A model generated the notes under the pieces. It saw only the letters and a program-made list of their open reading frames with translations. It made no database searches and was not told where the DNA came from. 35,006 bases of DNA from a virus. Both the position numbers and the translations under genes were made by a program. The DNA is taken from positions 1 to 35,006 of the IMG/VR virus record IMGVR_UViG_3300008451_000413. One strand, given 5' to 3'. Below are positions 4,012 through 13,635 of this stretch, one piece after another. Each line of letters begins with the position of its first letter. Position 1 is the first letter of the stretch.

Positions 4012-4260
4012 TCAATACTTGACGTTGTGAGAATCAAAAAAGGCGCGAGCCGACTCAGTCACAAAGTCACTGTCAGCAAGAATTGATTGAACCGAGCCAA
4101 ACCAGTGATTAATAAACTCGTCAGTAAATTGGCCTTGTACAAAGCTGCCGCCAAGAGTTGCAGCAGCGTTATCGCAAGCCAGTCCATCTACATCCATAAC
4201 GCCAAGGCACCGAGTCCGCTGGCACATTTCAAATAATTCACGCTTTGTTGGGTTGGTCAT
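4012..4260 (-). CDS. First gene of leftward operon, hypothetical (82 aa)
   Basis: ATG 4260 has AGGAG nine bases upstream and lies about 28 bp downstream of the transcription start inferred from the leftward promoter. The upstream in-frame ATG at 4323 lies inside the promoter itself and is rejected. The product is acidic with four cysteines in its first half. It has no membrane span and no recognised motif. As the first gene of the operon it could be regulatory, but nothing in the sequence shows this. Confidence 0.6.
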   Translation of the reverse strand: MTNPTKRELFEMCQRTRCLGVMDVDGLACDNAAATLGGSFVQGQFTDEFINHWFGSVQSILADSDFVTESARAFFDSHNVKY

Positions 4261-4294
4261 TTCGCTACTCCTGGTTGTTTGCTGCGATGTAGAG

Positions 4295-4323
4295 ACTGTA
4301 ATACGCAAATAAGCGCAACGCAA
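4295..4323 (-). promoter_or_regulatory. Leftward early promoter (PL-like)
   Basis: Reading the minus strand, TTGCGT (4323-4318), a 17-bp spacer and TACAGT (4300-4295) form a reasonable sigma70-type promoter. The inferred start near 4288 precedes the first leftward gene. The element GCGTATTAC overlaps the first half of the -10, at the same register as in the divergent rightward promoter. Confidence 0.6.
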
Positions 4324-4382
4324 TAGGTTTTTGCAAATAAATTAAAAATAAATCGCTTGCGATGTTGCAAAAAGCGTATTAC
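4298..4382. promoter_or_regulatory. Paired 9-bp operator candidates GTAATACGC / GCGTATTAC
   Basis: GTAATACGC at 4298-4306 and its exact reverse complement GCGTATTAC at 4374-4382 flank a 67-bp, AT-rich centre. Each copy overlaps three bases of its promoter's -10 box. The symmetric placement is what a repressor acting on both divergent promoters would need. The small ribbon-helix-helix-like protein encoded immediately to the right is the natural candidate ligand (inference). Confidence 0.55.
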
Positions 4383-4385
4383 TAT
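4357..4385 (+). promoter_or_regulatory. Rightward early promoter (leaderless start)
   Basis: TTGCGA (4357-4362), a 17-bp spacer and TACTAT (4380-4385) form a good sigma70-type promoter. The expected start is 6-8 bases after the -10, at 4391-4393, which coincides with the ATG of the first gene at 4393. The mRNA would then be leaderless or nearly so, as for lambda cI from PRM. Confidence 0.65.
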
Positions 4386-4392
4386 CTACCGC

Positions 4393-4545
4393 ATGAAAAC
4401 AAATCAACCAACTGTAAACAACAGCATACGCCTTCCGGTATCCTACTGGGCCAAGCTGCGTGCTGTGTGGCAAAAATCAGGCGGCGGATGGTTATTAAAA
4501 GCCATTGACCGGGAACATAAACGCATTTTTGGGGCGACCAAATGA
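4393..4545 (+). CDS. Ribbon-helix-helix-like regulator (50 aa)
   Basis: A 50-residue basic protein, close to Arc repressor in size. NSIRLP at about residues 10-15 looks like the DNA-contacting beta strand. Two helices follow: VSYWAKLRAVWQKSG, then GGWLLKAIDREHKRIFG. No RBS precedes ATG 4393 and the promoter -10 ends only 7 bases upstream, so translation is probably leaderless; an in-frame ATG at 4357 lies in the -35 and is rejected. Position between mirror-image promoters suggests that it represses one or both. The fold assignment rests on pattern only. It overlaps the lipoprotein gene by ATGA. Confidence 0.6.
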   Translation: MKTNQPTVNNSIRLPVSYWAKLRAVWQKSGGGWLLKAIDREHKRIFGATK

Positions 4546-5399
4546 AACACGCCCTAGCCCTTGCCGTATCTATCCTAGTCGCTGGCTGTGGCGCTCAGTC
4601 AAAGCCGCTGAATATCTGCATGCAACCAAGTGACCGCGTGATTGCAATGGCGAACTGTGACGCAGTTATCCAGCCACTCGGCGAGACGGACCCCATTAAG
4701 TCAGCAGCAGCACAAGCCGCACTAGGCCCAAACGTGATCGGCTGGACCCTTGGCGAAGTGCCAAACGAAAAAGCACGCGCTCAAGGTGCGATCACTGATG
4801 ACATGGTTGCACGCGCTCCGGCTCTATTGGCTGAAATGGCGAAGTACCCAAACATCAAGTGGGTTTTTGTAGCTGATGAACTGGGATGGTGCGACACAAA
4901 GACATGCCTGTATGACTACCTTCCGCAACTGGTCTACAAGGCACGTCTAGCACGTGCAGCGGGTAAGAAGGTTCTTATCTCCATGCAGCCCGGCATCTTG
5001 ACGCAGTACCCCGATGCAGTAGTGGACGGCATCAATGAAGTGGACGGGATTGTTTTTGACATTTACCCATCCATTCCTTACCCCGCCGACTTCGGCAATT
5101 GCAAGCTGAACGACAACCCCTATTCGACTGCGCTGCATTGCTCTGTTGAACGAGTCCGGCGCATGGGCTTCAAGGGCGCGATTGTCTATGCCGCTCAGGG
5201 CTTCAAGCTGACCACAGACGACGACACATGGCTCAAGAAACAACTGCTTCTACAGCAGGAAACCCTGCACAACGCCACAGCTTACGGCGCTGATGCGGTA
5301 GTCGTTTTCGGATGCCACAAAGACGCCTATTTAGAGCGCGTTGAACCCAATTTGGTGCCTCTATGCGGCACTCAATACGAAGCGTTAGTAACACCATAA
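4542..5399 (+). CDS. Lipoprotein with barrel-like (glycosidase-like) domain
   Basis: A 285-residue protein with an N-terminal signal (MKHALALAVSI) and lipobox LVAG|C, lipidated Cys16, and Gly at +2, which permits outer-membrane sorting. Eight other cysteines (26, 39, 117, 122, 187, 200, 258, 275) suggest periplasmic disulfides. Repeated strand/helix units such as VIGWTLGE, IKWVFVADE (D112/E113), KVLISMQPG, GIVFDIYPS (D173), GAIVYAAQG and AVVVFGC suggest a TIM-barrel fold with acidic strand-end residues, as in glycoside hydrolases. It is co-transcribed with the regulator (ATGA overlap) from the early promoter. Surface modification or superinfection exclusion is plausible but unproven. The family is not identified. 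Confidence 0.6.
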   Translation: MKHALALAVSILVAGCGAQSKPLNICMQPSDRVIAMANCDAVIQPLGETDPIKSAAAQAALGPNVIGWTLGEVPNEKARAQGAITDDMVARAPALLAEMAKYPNIKWVFVADELGWCDTKTCLYDYLPQLVYKARLARAAGKKVLISMQPGILTQYPDAVVDGINEVDGIVFDIYPSIPYPADFGNCKLNDNPYSTALHCSVERVRRMGFKGAIVYAAQGFKLTTDDDTWLKKQLLLQQETLHNATAYGADAVVVFGCHKDAYLERVEPNLVPLCGTQYEALVTP

Positions 5400-5676: not shown

Positions 5677-5942
5677 ACTTCGCCAAACCTCTCGGCCCTT
5701 TTGCGATCTTGTACGAAACACGCAAGACACCAGCACCCGCGCCACGCAAGAAAAAATACAAGACCAAGCAAGAGCGTGCAGTCATTGCTCTGGAAACACC
5801 AGCAGAACGCCGCACACGCCATGCAGCAGAGCGACAAGCAGCGATGGCTGCGATTCTGCGCAAGAACCCCTATTCCGAGATCGCCATATCAACCCCTGGC
5901 GCAGCAGACCGCGCTAACGCACTACGGAGAGCAGCTATATGA
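5673..5942 (+). CDS. Basic hypothetical protein (89 aa)
   Basis: Lysine/arginine-rich protein: PAPAPRKKKYKTKQERAV (about 20-37) is followed by alanine/arginine-rich helices (PAERRTRHAAERQAAMAAI). It starts and ends in 4-bp overlaps with its neighbours. The charge suggests nucleic-acid binding, but no motif proves it. A larger frame on the same strand (5573-5917) is taken as its shadow. Confidence 0.6.
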   Translation: MNFAKPLGPFAILYETRKTPAPAPRKKKYKTKQERAVIALETPAERRTRHAAERQAAMAAILRKNPYSEIAISTPGAADRANALRRAAI

Positions 5943-6151
5943 CTCAGCATGAACAACTAGCAAAAGTCCTGCGCATATGGACTTCGCCCATTGATGCATT
6001 GAAGAAGGTAGGAACTATGAAGCTGGCAACACGCATTGGAGAAATGCGCCGCGCTGGATATGAGATTCAAGACCGTTGGGTTGAAGCCAATGGGAAACGT
6101 TTCAAGGCATATCGCCTGAAAGCAAAAGCCGCTACCTGCGCCAACAAGTAA
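5939..6151 (+). CDS. Helix-turn-helix domain protein (70 aa)
   Basis: The sequence ISPxDAL-like (TSPIDALKKVGTMKLATRIG) followed by EMRRAGYEIQDRW and KAYRL matches the small phage winged-helix domain (HTH_39 type) in which LA.RI..LRR.GY is the recognition region. It is probably a DNA-binding accessory or transcription factor of the early region. ATG 5939 overlaps the previous stop. Confidence 0.65.
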   Translation: MTQHEQLAKVLRIWTSPIDALKKVGTMKLATRIGEMRRAGYEIQDRWVEANGKRFKAYRLKAKAATCANK

Positions 6152-11977: not shown

Positions 11978-12148
11978 ATGCCAAGACCTAAACCACCACA
12001 CCCACTAAAGCCGCGAGAAGTTCGCATGTCGGACGAGGAATGGCAAGAGTTTCGCGCAATGGGCGGCGCTGCTTGGTTGCGAAAGATGATGCAGACCAGA
12101 CCAAGACGCTATTACGAAGTATTTCAACGACCACAGGGGACCGCATGA
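11978..12148 (+). CDS. Small RHH-like protein (56 aa)
   Basis: ATG 11978 lies 9 bp after ninB; TGA 12146-12148 overlaps the next ATG. The product has a proline-rich start and then REVRMSDEEWQEFRAMGGAAWL, a strand followed by two helices like ribbon-helix-helix proteins. This pattern resembles the 4393-4545 protein (R-hydrophobic...W..(L/F)RA...WL.K). It is probably a small DNA-binding protein; its target is unknown. Confidence 0.55.
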   Translation: MPRPKPPHPLKPREVRMSDEEWQEFRAMGGAAWLRKMMQTRPRRYYEVFQRPQGTA

Positions 12149-12390: not shown

Positions 12391-12764
12391 AAGACGACAC
12401 AAACGAAATATTGTCAGCACTTTTGTGCGACTGGCACCGTTGGGCATGCGGTTACAAGCATGTGGGGGGCATAAACACCTCTCCAATGTTCCGCGAGGTA
12501 AAGACCGGACGGCAATGGGACACGCTTGATGAAATAGTAGACAGCGACATAGAACACAGCCGCATGGACGCCTTAGACCACATCATCATGCAACTTTGCG
12601 ATGTGTATAGGACCGCGCTACAGATACAGGCAAGGAACCTGCACACCGGACGCAGTGTTTGGAGTAGCGCTAGACTGCCAGCAGATGAAAAGGCCAGGGC
12701 TATTGTTCTGGTAGACGCTAGATCGGCTTTGTTGGGCAAATTACGTGATGCGGGGATAATGTGA
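12387..12764 (+). CDS. Candidate Q-type late regulator (125 aa)
   Basis: ATG 12387 (MKDDTNEILSALLCDWHRWA) overlaps the previous stop; an upstream TTG at 12363 is rejected. The protein is helical, with a conserved-looking core (DALDHIIMQLCDVYRTALQI, then RNLHTGRSVWSSARLP). It occupies the slot just before a promoter-terminator unit and the terminase genes, where lambdoid phages encode antiterminator Q. No zinc motif or other proof is visible; the role is inferred from position. Confidence 0.45.
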   Translation: MKDDTNEILSALLCDWHRWACGYKHVGGINTSPMFREVKTGRQWDTLDEIVDSDIEHSRMDALDHIIMQLCDVYRTALQIQARNLHTGRSVWSSARLPADEKARAIVLVDARSALLGKLRDAGIM

Positions 12765-12940
12765 TGTTGATTGATATAGGCAGGCAAGAGGCAGAAGCGC
12801 TGGTGGATTTGCTGGAGCAACAGGATAGGCCGTGGCCCTTGGATACTCTAGCGGCCCATTTGCGCGAGAAATTCGGCATGGTCACAAAGGAGCGGGAAGC
12901 TGAGTACAGGGCGCAACAGGCGGCGAAGAAGTTAGGGTAA
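12764..12940 (+). CDS. Small hypothetical protein (58 aa)
   Basis: A 58-codon gene from ATG 12764 (one base overlap with the preceding TGA; GTG 12761 is an alternative) to TAA 12938-12940. The product begins MLIDIGRQEAEALVDLLEQQ and is entirely helical and charged (REKFGMVTKEREAEYRAQQ). It is the last gene before the non-coding late-control region. Unknown function. Confidence 0.6.
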   Translation: MLIDIGRQEAEALVDLLEQQDRPWPLDTLAAHLREKFGMVTKEREAEYRAQQAAKKLG

Positions 12941-12948
12941 ACACTTAG

Positions 12949-12978
12949 TTGACACATAGAAATAATGTGTGGTAGAGT
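12949..12978 (+). promoter_or_regulatory. Late-type promoter (pR'-like) with dyad in spacer
   Basis: Perfect -35 TTGACA (12949-12954), an 18-bp spacer and TAGAGT (12973-12978) give a good promoter, with an expected start near 12985. A perfect dyad ACACAT-N7-ATGTGT (12952-12970) overlaps the -35 and fills the spacer, a likely operator or Q-binding site. Confidence 0.65.
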
Positions 12979-12984
12979 CCGCAC

Positions 12985-13106
12985 CAGTAGGACAAGTGCC
13001 TTCAAAATTTAGCCCCTTCAATGGGGCTTAGGCAATGAATAGTGTCGCAACCTTTCATGGCCTAGTGCCCCTAAAGCCGCTTTGTAGCAATACAGGCGGC
13101 TTTTTG
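12985..13106 (+). ncRNA. Predicted short leader RNA between late promoter and terminator
   Basis: A transcript from the promoter above would run about 120 nt to the terminator ending near 13106, with no ORF of note. It contains a first stem-loop, AGCCCC/GGGGCT (13011-13016 with 13023-13028). Size and position resemble the lambda 6S leader RNA made between pR' and tR'. Both ends are predictions. Confidence 0.45.
13073..13106 (+). terminator. GNRA-capped intrinsic terminator (tR'-like)
   Basis: Arms AAAGCCGC (13073-13080) and GCGGCTTT (13096-13103), with an inner TGTA/TACA stem capped by GCAA, a GNRA tetraloop. The 3' arm runs straight into TTTTT. This is a strong rho-independent terminator about 120 nt downstream of the late promoter; antitermination would be needed to reach the terminase genes. 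Confidence 0.75.
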
Positions 13107-13108
13107 CA

Positions 13109-13167
13109 TTCTGGCGGCGATCTTCACACCTCATGCGCTCTTATGCCTAAGTGATCGACCGCCAGAA
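13109..13167. other. Long inverted repeat in late leader
   Basis: TTCTGGCGGCGATC (13109-13122) pairs with GATCGACCGCCAGAA (13153-13167) across a 30-base loop, with one extra A in the 3' arm. No T-run follows. It may be an RNA stem in a read-through transcript or a protein-binding or packaging site. Smaller arms occur downstream: GGGTG/CACCC (13217-13221, 13235-13239) and GGTTGG/CCAACC (13251-13256, 13270-13275). Confidence 0.5.
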
Positions 13168-13276
13168 CCTAGCAGACCCAGGCGCGTAGTAAAGCCCGTG
13201 AAAAACCGGTGACTCTGGGTGAAGAAGAACCGCGCACCCATTTACTCCTTGGTTGGTTTTTGAAAAGTTCCAACCC

Positions 13277-13310
13277 TTGCAACTCCGCAGCAATGCCGAG
13301 TTGCTTTTTT
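13277..13310 (+). terminator. Second intrinsic terminator before terminase
   Basis: GCAACTC (13279-13285) and GAGTTGC (13298-13304) form a 7-bp stem with a 12-base loop, followed by TTTTTT (13305-13310). It lies 28 bp before the small-terminase ATG. Two terminators in series upstream of the late genes fit antitermination control. The remaining sequence 12941-13338 has no gene that I can support. Confidence 0.7.
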
Positions 13311-13338
13311 ATTCCTTCGATACCCACACGGATTCGAT

Positions 13339-13635
13339 ATGACAGCAAACACAACACAGCCGAAAAATTCGGGTAAGTTCGGAAAAGGCAACCCCGGAAA
13401 GCCTAAAGGCGCAGTGCAAAAAAGCACAGCCGCAATCAAAGACATGATTAAAGCCGCTTTAGAGCAGGCTGGCGGCGTTGATTACTTGGTAGAGAGGGCT
13501 AACGACCCGCGCACAGCTTCGGCGTTCCTAGGCTTGGTTGGCAAAGTTATGCCCATGCAGGTGACGGGCGCTGACGGTGGCCCGGTAGAGGTTGGCGTCA
13601 CATTCCAGGTGGTAGGCGTTGCCCCGAAAACTTGA
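13339..13635 (+). CDS. Terminase small subunit
   Basis: A 98-residue protein with an N-terminal glycine/lysine-rich box (KFGKGNPGKPKGAVQK) and then a helical core (IKDMIKAALEQAGGVDYLVE, then TASAFLGLVGKVMPMQV). This GKGNPGKPKG opening is usual in phage proteins annotated as small terminase-type DNA-recognition subunits. It directly precedes and overlaps terL by 17 bp. It would recognise the packaging site and regulate the large subunit. Confidence 0.7.
   Translation: MTANTTQPKNSGKFGKGNPGKPKGAVQKSTAAIKDMIKAALEQAGGVDYLVERANDPRTASAFLGLVGKVMPMQVTGADGGPVEVGVTFQVVGVAPKT

Follow-up and report, generated by a model that had tools for sequence, protein, structure and literature searches.

The intergenic region between two divergent genes in a viral contig (IMG/VR record IMGVR_UViG_3300008451_000413; its 35,006 nucleotides are called the window here) is probably a compact control unit, in which the product of the small gene at 4393 would act as a leaderless RHH autorepressor that shuts down both promoters via the word GCGTATTAC. 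The architecture, the leaderless geometry, the protein family and the way in which words pair with strand classes come from sequence comparison; the RHH fold, the binding, repression rather than activation, and the timing are what we infer.

Two divergent promoters and an inverted word

In the sequence-only reading, the region was described as a leftward TTGCGT-N17-TACAGT and a rightward TTGCGA-N17-TACTAT promoter, each with GCGTATTAC running three bases into the -10. We found both sets of hexamers with their 17-bp spacers at these positions (Table 1), and exact matching confirmed both copies of the word and their overlap with the -10. The search for GCGTATTAC elsewhere in the 35,006-base record, which had also been proposed, returned only these two inverted copies, and the word read backwards had 0 matches in the contig. 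The ungapped arms have TTGCG of the -35 in common and are identical at 12 of 14 positions around the word. The region contains a second 9-nt inverted repeat, TTTTTGCAA/TTGCAAAAA. The identical register on both strands, to which the earlier reading attached importance, holds for the GC flank; otherwise it is less meaningful than it appears, because GTATTAC is itself a near-palindrome (GTA-T-TAC).

Table 1. Features of the divergent control region and its flanking genes
Feature	Position	Strand	Basis or remark
Intergenic control region between divergent genes	4261..4392	.	Sequence and family upstream DNA profile; 132 bp
First leftward gene, 82 aa	4012..4260	-	ATG at 4260; other genes behind the same leader in L003 and L004
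Shine-Dalgarno AGGAG of leftward gene	4268..4272	-	Sequence
Leftward -10 TACAGT	4295..4300	-	Position matches family CACAAT/TTCAAT
Leftward candidate operator word GCGTATTAC	4298..4306	-	Exact match; overlaps leftward -10
Leftward -35 TTGCGT, 17-bp spacer	4318..4323	-	TTG kept across family
TTTTTGCAA	4328..4336	+	Aligned to family TTTTTG preceding right-hand word; inverted copy 4365-4373
Rightward -35 TTGCGA	4357..4362	+	PWM scan
Rightward candidate operator word GCGTATTAC	4374..4382	+	Exact match; overlaps rightward -10
Rightward -10 TACTAT	4380..4385	+	7 nt upstream of ATG; predicted leaderless mRNA
50-aa RHH-like regulator gene, proposed autorepressor	4393..4545, stop included	+	Family profile

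Taken from the window sequence alone, the inverted word pair is suggestive, being modestly beyond chance and not decisive. When the 132-bp region was shuffled, 3.5% of the shuffles contained a 9-nt inverted repeat. The 40-nt arms (4293-4332 and 4348-4387) were equalled in 8 of 1000 shuffles (0.8%) with a lenient mismatch penalty, and a strict penalty kept only a 14-nt core, with 73 of 1000 (7.3%). An exact-repeat test applied to each member of the family described below gave p<=0.05 in only 9 of 39 and p = 0.06 for the window; this per-member test is too strict. Both promoters are weak as sigma-70 sites. Neither was listed in a sigma-70 consensus scan of the window, and a PWM scan of ~350,000 placements ranked the rightward promoter 47 and the leftward one 219, preferring another leftward placement (TTGCAA-N18-TTTAAT at 4370-4341) over TTGCGT-N17-TACAGT.

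Close relatives and a distant protein family

The 4393 protein was also present in two viral contigs, L003 and L004 (96 and 98% identical), in which the control block (about 4256-4620) was 94-95% identical. The leftward gene behind this block is different in all three phages, so the control module seems to travel as one unit. Few intergenic columns vary among the three, and conservation between such close phages therefore cannot separate operator from spacer. In an IMG/VR scan, GTAATACGC-N55..80-GCGTATTAC matched only L003, L004 and the unrelated phages L090 and L092; the latter two matches were judged to be due to chance. The gene at the leftward position of L004, at 4056-4931(-), carries many short glycine-rich GTATAG-type repeats. 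On the other side, the 4393 gene heads a rightward run, with its stop codon overlapping the ATG at 4542, and the regulator may therefore also limit the rightward operon. The ORF that starts there (4542-5399(+)) is lipoprotein-like; L003 and L004 retain its signal-peptide part together with the control module, while its body differs or is shortened there.

A tblastn search of the 50-aa protein against phages and plasmids gave nothing useful, a first search of genome contigs gave nothing, and no diverged control region was found by DNA similarity among RecT and terminase relatives. The set of RecT relatives contained L030 and L070, and it was in these two that local tblastn of the 4393 protein against the retrieved loci produced its two matches, both weak yet plausible. 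Their genes have a -10-like hexamer just upstream of the ATG and no Shine-Dalgarno sequence. Extension through L030 and L070 brought the family to 29 viral loci, 6 genome loci (Paraburkholderia, Hydrogenophaga and Pseudorhodoferax), Burkholderia plasmids and a few further genomes. Judged by sequence, this is an undescribed family of 50-75-aa proteins, most of them from Burkholderiales phages and prophages, with the 4393 product as a putative remote member. A family profile built without the window placed the 4393 ORF first among 834 ORFs (E=6.5e-4). The window and L003 proteins lack the N-terminal GRP motif before the strand and have a shorter N-terminus than the family; the first helix of the window protein is longer, and this, together with the missing GRP stretch, makes it a remote member at best, as the L003 protein is.

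The runner-up for the profile (E=0.002) was a second small RHH-like ORF, MPRPKPPHPLKPREVRMSDEEWQEFRAMGGAAWLRKMMQTRPRRYYEVFQRPQGTA, at 11979-12145(+) within the rightward gene run. Neither the family nor the 4393 protein had a match in Pfam, PHROGs or NCBIfam. In the Burkholderia plasmid loci L175 and L176 (at 1459) the family gene is present, but the plasmid gene tables omit it. As such genes are unannotated there and match none of the protein-family libraries searched, similar control regions have probably been overlooked.

Homology of the control DNA and leaderless geometry

A DNA profile was built from the 135-nt upstream regions of 37 relatives, with the window left out. Searched against the contig with nhmmer, it gave a sole significant match at 4249-4336 (E=7e-5; next 9.4), compared with 0.38 for the reversed window and E=0.05 for the best of 20 mononucleotide shuffles. 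At the leftward promoter, TTG was found at the -35 in 30 of 35 homologues, against about 4% by shuffling, with 16-18 bases (17 in most) between it and the -10; these positions come from a search seeded with -10 words that we listed, four members without such a word being set aside. TTGCGT-N17 is identical in L183, L190, L192, L196 and L199. The leftward word was aligned by eye, ungapped, to the family left word TGTGATTCACAAA, the window version being TGTAATACGCAAA, and family members have their own class word in the equivalent spacer/-10 region of the rightward promoter. The profile alignment pairs TTTTTG at 4328-4333 with the family TTTTTG immediately upstream of the right-hand word. The window then has about 45 extra bases, followed by the inverted arrangement, and in the relatives the copies of the word are direct or palindromic; from this comparison, we infer that the mirror-image arrangement looks lineage-specific.

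When the -10 was sought at 3-24 nt from the ATG, the best hexamer ended 6-7 nt before it in 36/36 nonredundant members, including the window (gap 7). A Shine-Dalgarno core, sought at -18 to -4, was found in 0 of 36 distinct members, and the window ATG at 4393 likewise has none. A -10 at this distance without a Shine-Dalgarno sequence implies a leaderless mRNA, and the 4393 gene is thus very likely read from one, with a predicted start at or beside the AUG. On the leftward side, a Shine-Dalgarno sequence plus ATG was found in 25 of 35 members. Among phage regulators, leaderless mRNAs of PY54 cI and cro were measured (PMC4488713), and that of lambda cI is cited in the same paper. The window resembles lambda cI/PRM-PR and PY54 cI/cro in its divergent regulator promoters and its predicted leaderless regulator mRNA, but those systems use helix-turn-helix proteins, whereas here two early promoters stand back to back and a separate immunity region is absent.

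Candidate operator words follow the strand class of the small protein

The earlier reading expected the element to be conserved in relatives. What is kept is the layout; the word differs, each strand class having its own word at both promoters. Members were grouped by the six-residue strand, and the sequences had been inspected before the class words were defined, so the following counts are a description and not a blind test. In the QRSIRL/M members, the left site had TGATTC/GAATCA/GCATCAC in 27/27 cases and the right site in 26/27. In the RRA(M/V)(Y/F)L members (RRAMYL: GTGGCAC), GTGGCA/GTGCCA was found at both sites in 6/6 and the QRSIRL-class word in 0/6. TAACGAAA/GTGTAG was common to three of the four GRSIRL members, and the single KTLRY member (L226) had GTACACG three times. 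Upstream of the KTLRY gene there are three direct copies of TTGTACACG, followed by TACAAT close to the ATG, an arrangement that is apparently another operator class. The window strand is NNSIRL and its word is GTATTAC, within GCGTATTAC. This class consists of three near-identical phages, and GCGTATTAC is assigned to the 4393 protein by analogy with the other strand classes; the protein very probably binds the word at both promoters.

Two pairs of loci separate the strand from the helices. L209 and L205 are identical at 26/26 helix residues, and L181 and L198 have 25/26 in common; within each pair, the strand and the word differ, in L209 and L205 at both sites. The DNA of these pairs is 92-96% identical in the downstream part and only 56-63% upstream, so they look like recombinants. 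The covariation of strand class and word would fit a strand-based reading of the operator; since strand and words are physically linked, recombination alone could also have carried both together.

Fold and known systems

An AF2 model from 32 sequences consisted of an extended segment (1-15), a helix (16-29), GG and a second helix (32-46), with low confidence (mean pLDDT 68); with three sequences, a single, uninformative helix was obtained. Foldseek found no PDB fold match to the model, VIA gave nothing, and a PDB sequence search gave no match for the 4393 protein or the family. An hhalign comparison with one omega-repressor sequence (an approximate query) was not significant (0.2%). Outside the family, the profile matched genome proteins weakly, among them several BrnA antitoxins (PF14384) and a NikA-like protein, which we take to be RHH proteins. 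Two of the BrnA-type matches were confirmed in Pfam (6e-20 and 3.5e-25), and the BrnA-type alignments extend from the strand into the beginning of the first helix. An RHH fold of the 4393 family is therefore likely, not established. The family members themselves gave no match to PF14384. In the few loci whose neighbours were checked, no gene resembling a BrnT toxin was seen next to the small gene, and Pfam BrnT had no match in the adjoining window gene, 4542-5399.

P22 Arc/Mnt and related phage repressors are small RHH proteins that sit at divergent promoters and act through the beta-strand. The 4393 product would resemble Arc and Mnt as a small phage protein of predicted RHH type at divergent promoters, but it differs in having no PDB, Pfam or PHROGs sequence match, a gene predicted to be leaderless and a 7-9 bp candidate operator word present once per promoter at two promoters. 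In RHH proteins the base contacts are made by the strand (PMC2812701). The omega repressor/ParB of pSM19035 is an RHH protein that reads 7-bp repeats (PMC9499535); it shares with the window the pairing of an RHH protein (here predicted) with a short repeated word, whereas the omega partition function requires heptad arrays.

Proposed mechanism and alternatives

In the proposed model, both promoters would fire early in infection, the rightward transcript beginning at or next to the AUG and the leftward one having an ordinary ribosome-binding site. The 4393 protein would accumulate and then dimerise, its N-terminal strand NNSIRL would read GCGTATTAC, and the bound protein would cover both -10 regions and repress the leftward operon as well as its own. 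Repression is favoured because the word sits in the spacer/-10. The sequence-only reading had proposed that one DNA-binding protein, the 4393 product, controls all early transcription of the genome. The pairing of strand class and word supports such a role at both promoters; control of all early transcription would go beyond this. Besides region 4261-4392, no divergent start can be seen in the contig, but its ends are open, other promoters may exist, and in relatives such as L183 the small gene seems to have its side to itself.

The repeated word could merely reflect that one sigma factor reads both promoters, with no operator at all. The three-base overlap of the word with the -10 and the few-percent chance of the 9-nt repeat alone agree with this, yet among relatives the word found at these positions changes with protein class while the -35/-10 geometry is kept. 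Promoter function thus does not need the word, and we consider this explanation improbable. Similarly improbable is that the words are operators of another protein, a host factor or other phage regulator, with the 4393 product doing something else. The contig does encode candidates, namely the 5939-6151 product, which matches a winged-HTH family, and the second RHH-like ORF at about 11979. However, the words track the strand of the adjoining small protein across classes, and the small gene adjoins the promoter directly in every family member.

A switch, with activation of one promoter and repression of the other by the 4393 protein, is also unlikely, if slightly less so. Activators often serve weak promoters, and both hexamer sets are weak against the sigma-70 consensus. 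Against this, polymerase is usually blocked by a protein bound in the spacer/-10, the location of both words, and repression of both promoters by the 4393 product remains our preferred reading.

There is perhaps an even chance that the broader claim holds: an undescribed family of leaderless 50-75-aa phage autorepressors, among which phages swap operator word and DNA-reading strand as a pair, so that one scaffold carries a minimum of 4-5 distinct repressor-operator specificities. If so, the exchange of strand and word would be, in effect, a minimal immunity-like system. The comparison has in any case made a testable family out of what started as a two-copy sequence curiosity. Its members are regulators of very small size, a strand of six residues may suffice to predict their operator, and L205/L209 and L181/L198 are natural near-isogenic pairs differing in strand and word.

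Two further observations concern gene organisation. In the window, 12764-13339 has little assigned coding and contains a hairpin followed by T at about 13070-13105, upstream of the terminase gene; it is a possible late promoter or terminator region. In L183, the regulator gene, apparently without further genes on its own side, faces a leftward run that includes a Lar-like antirestriction gene.
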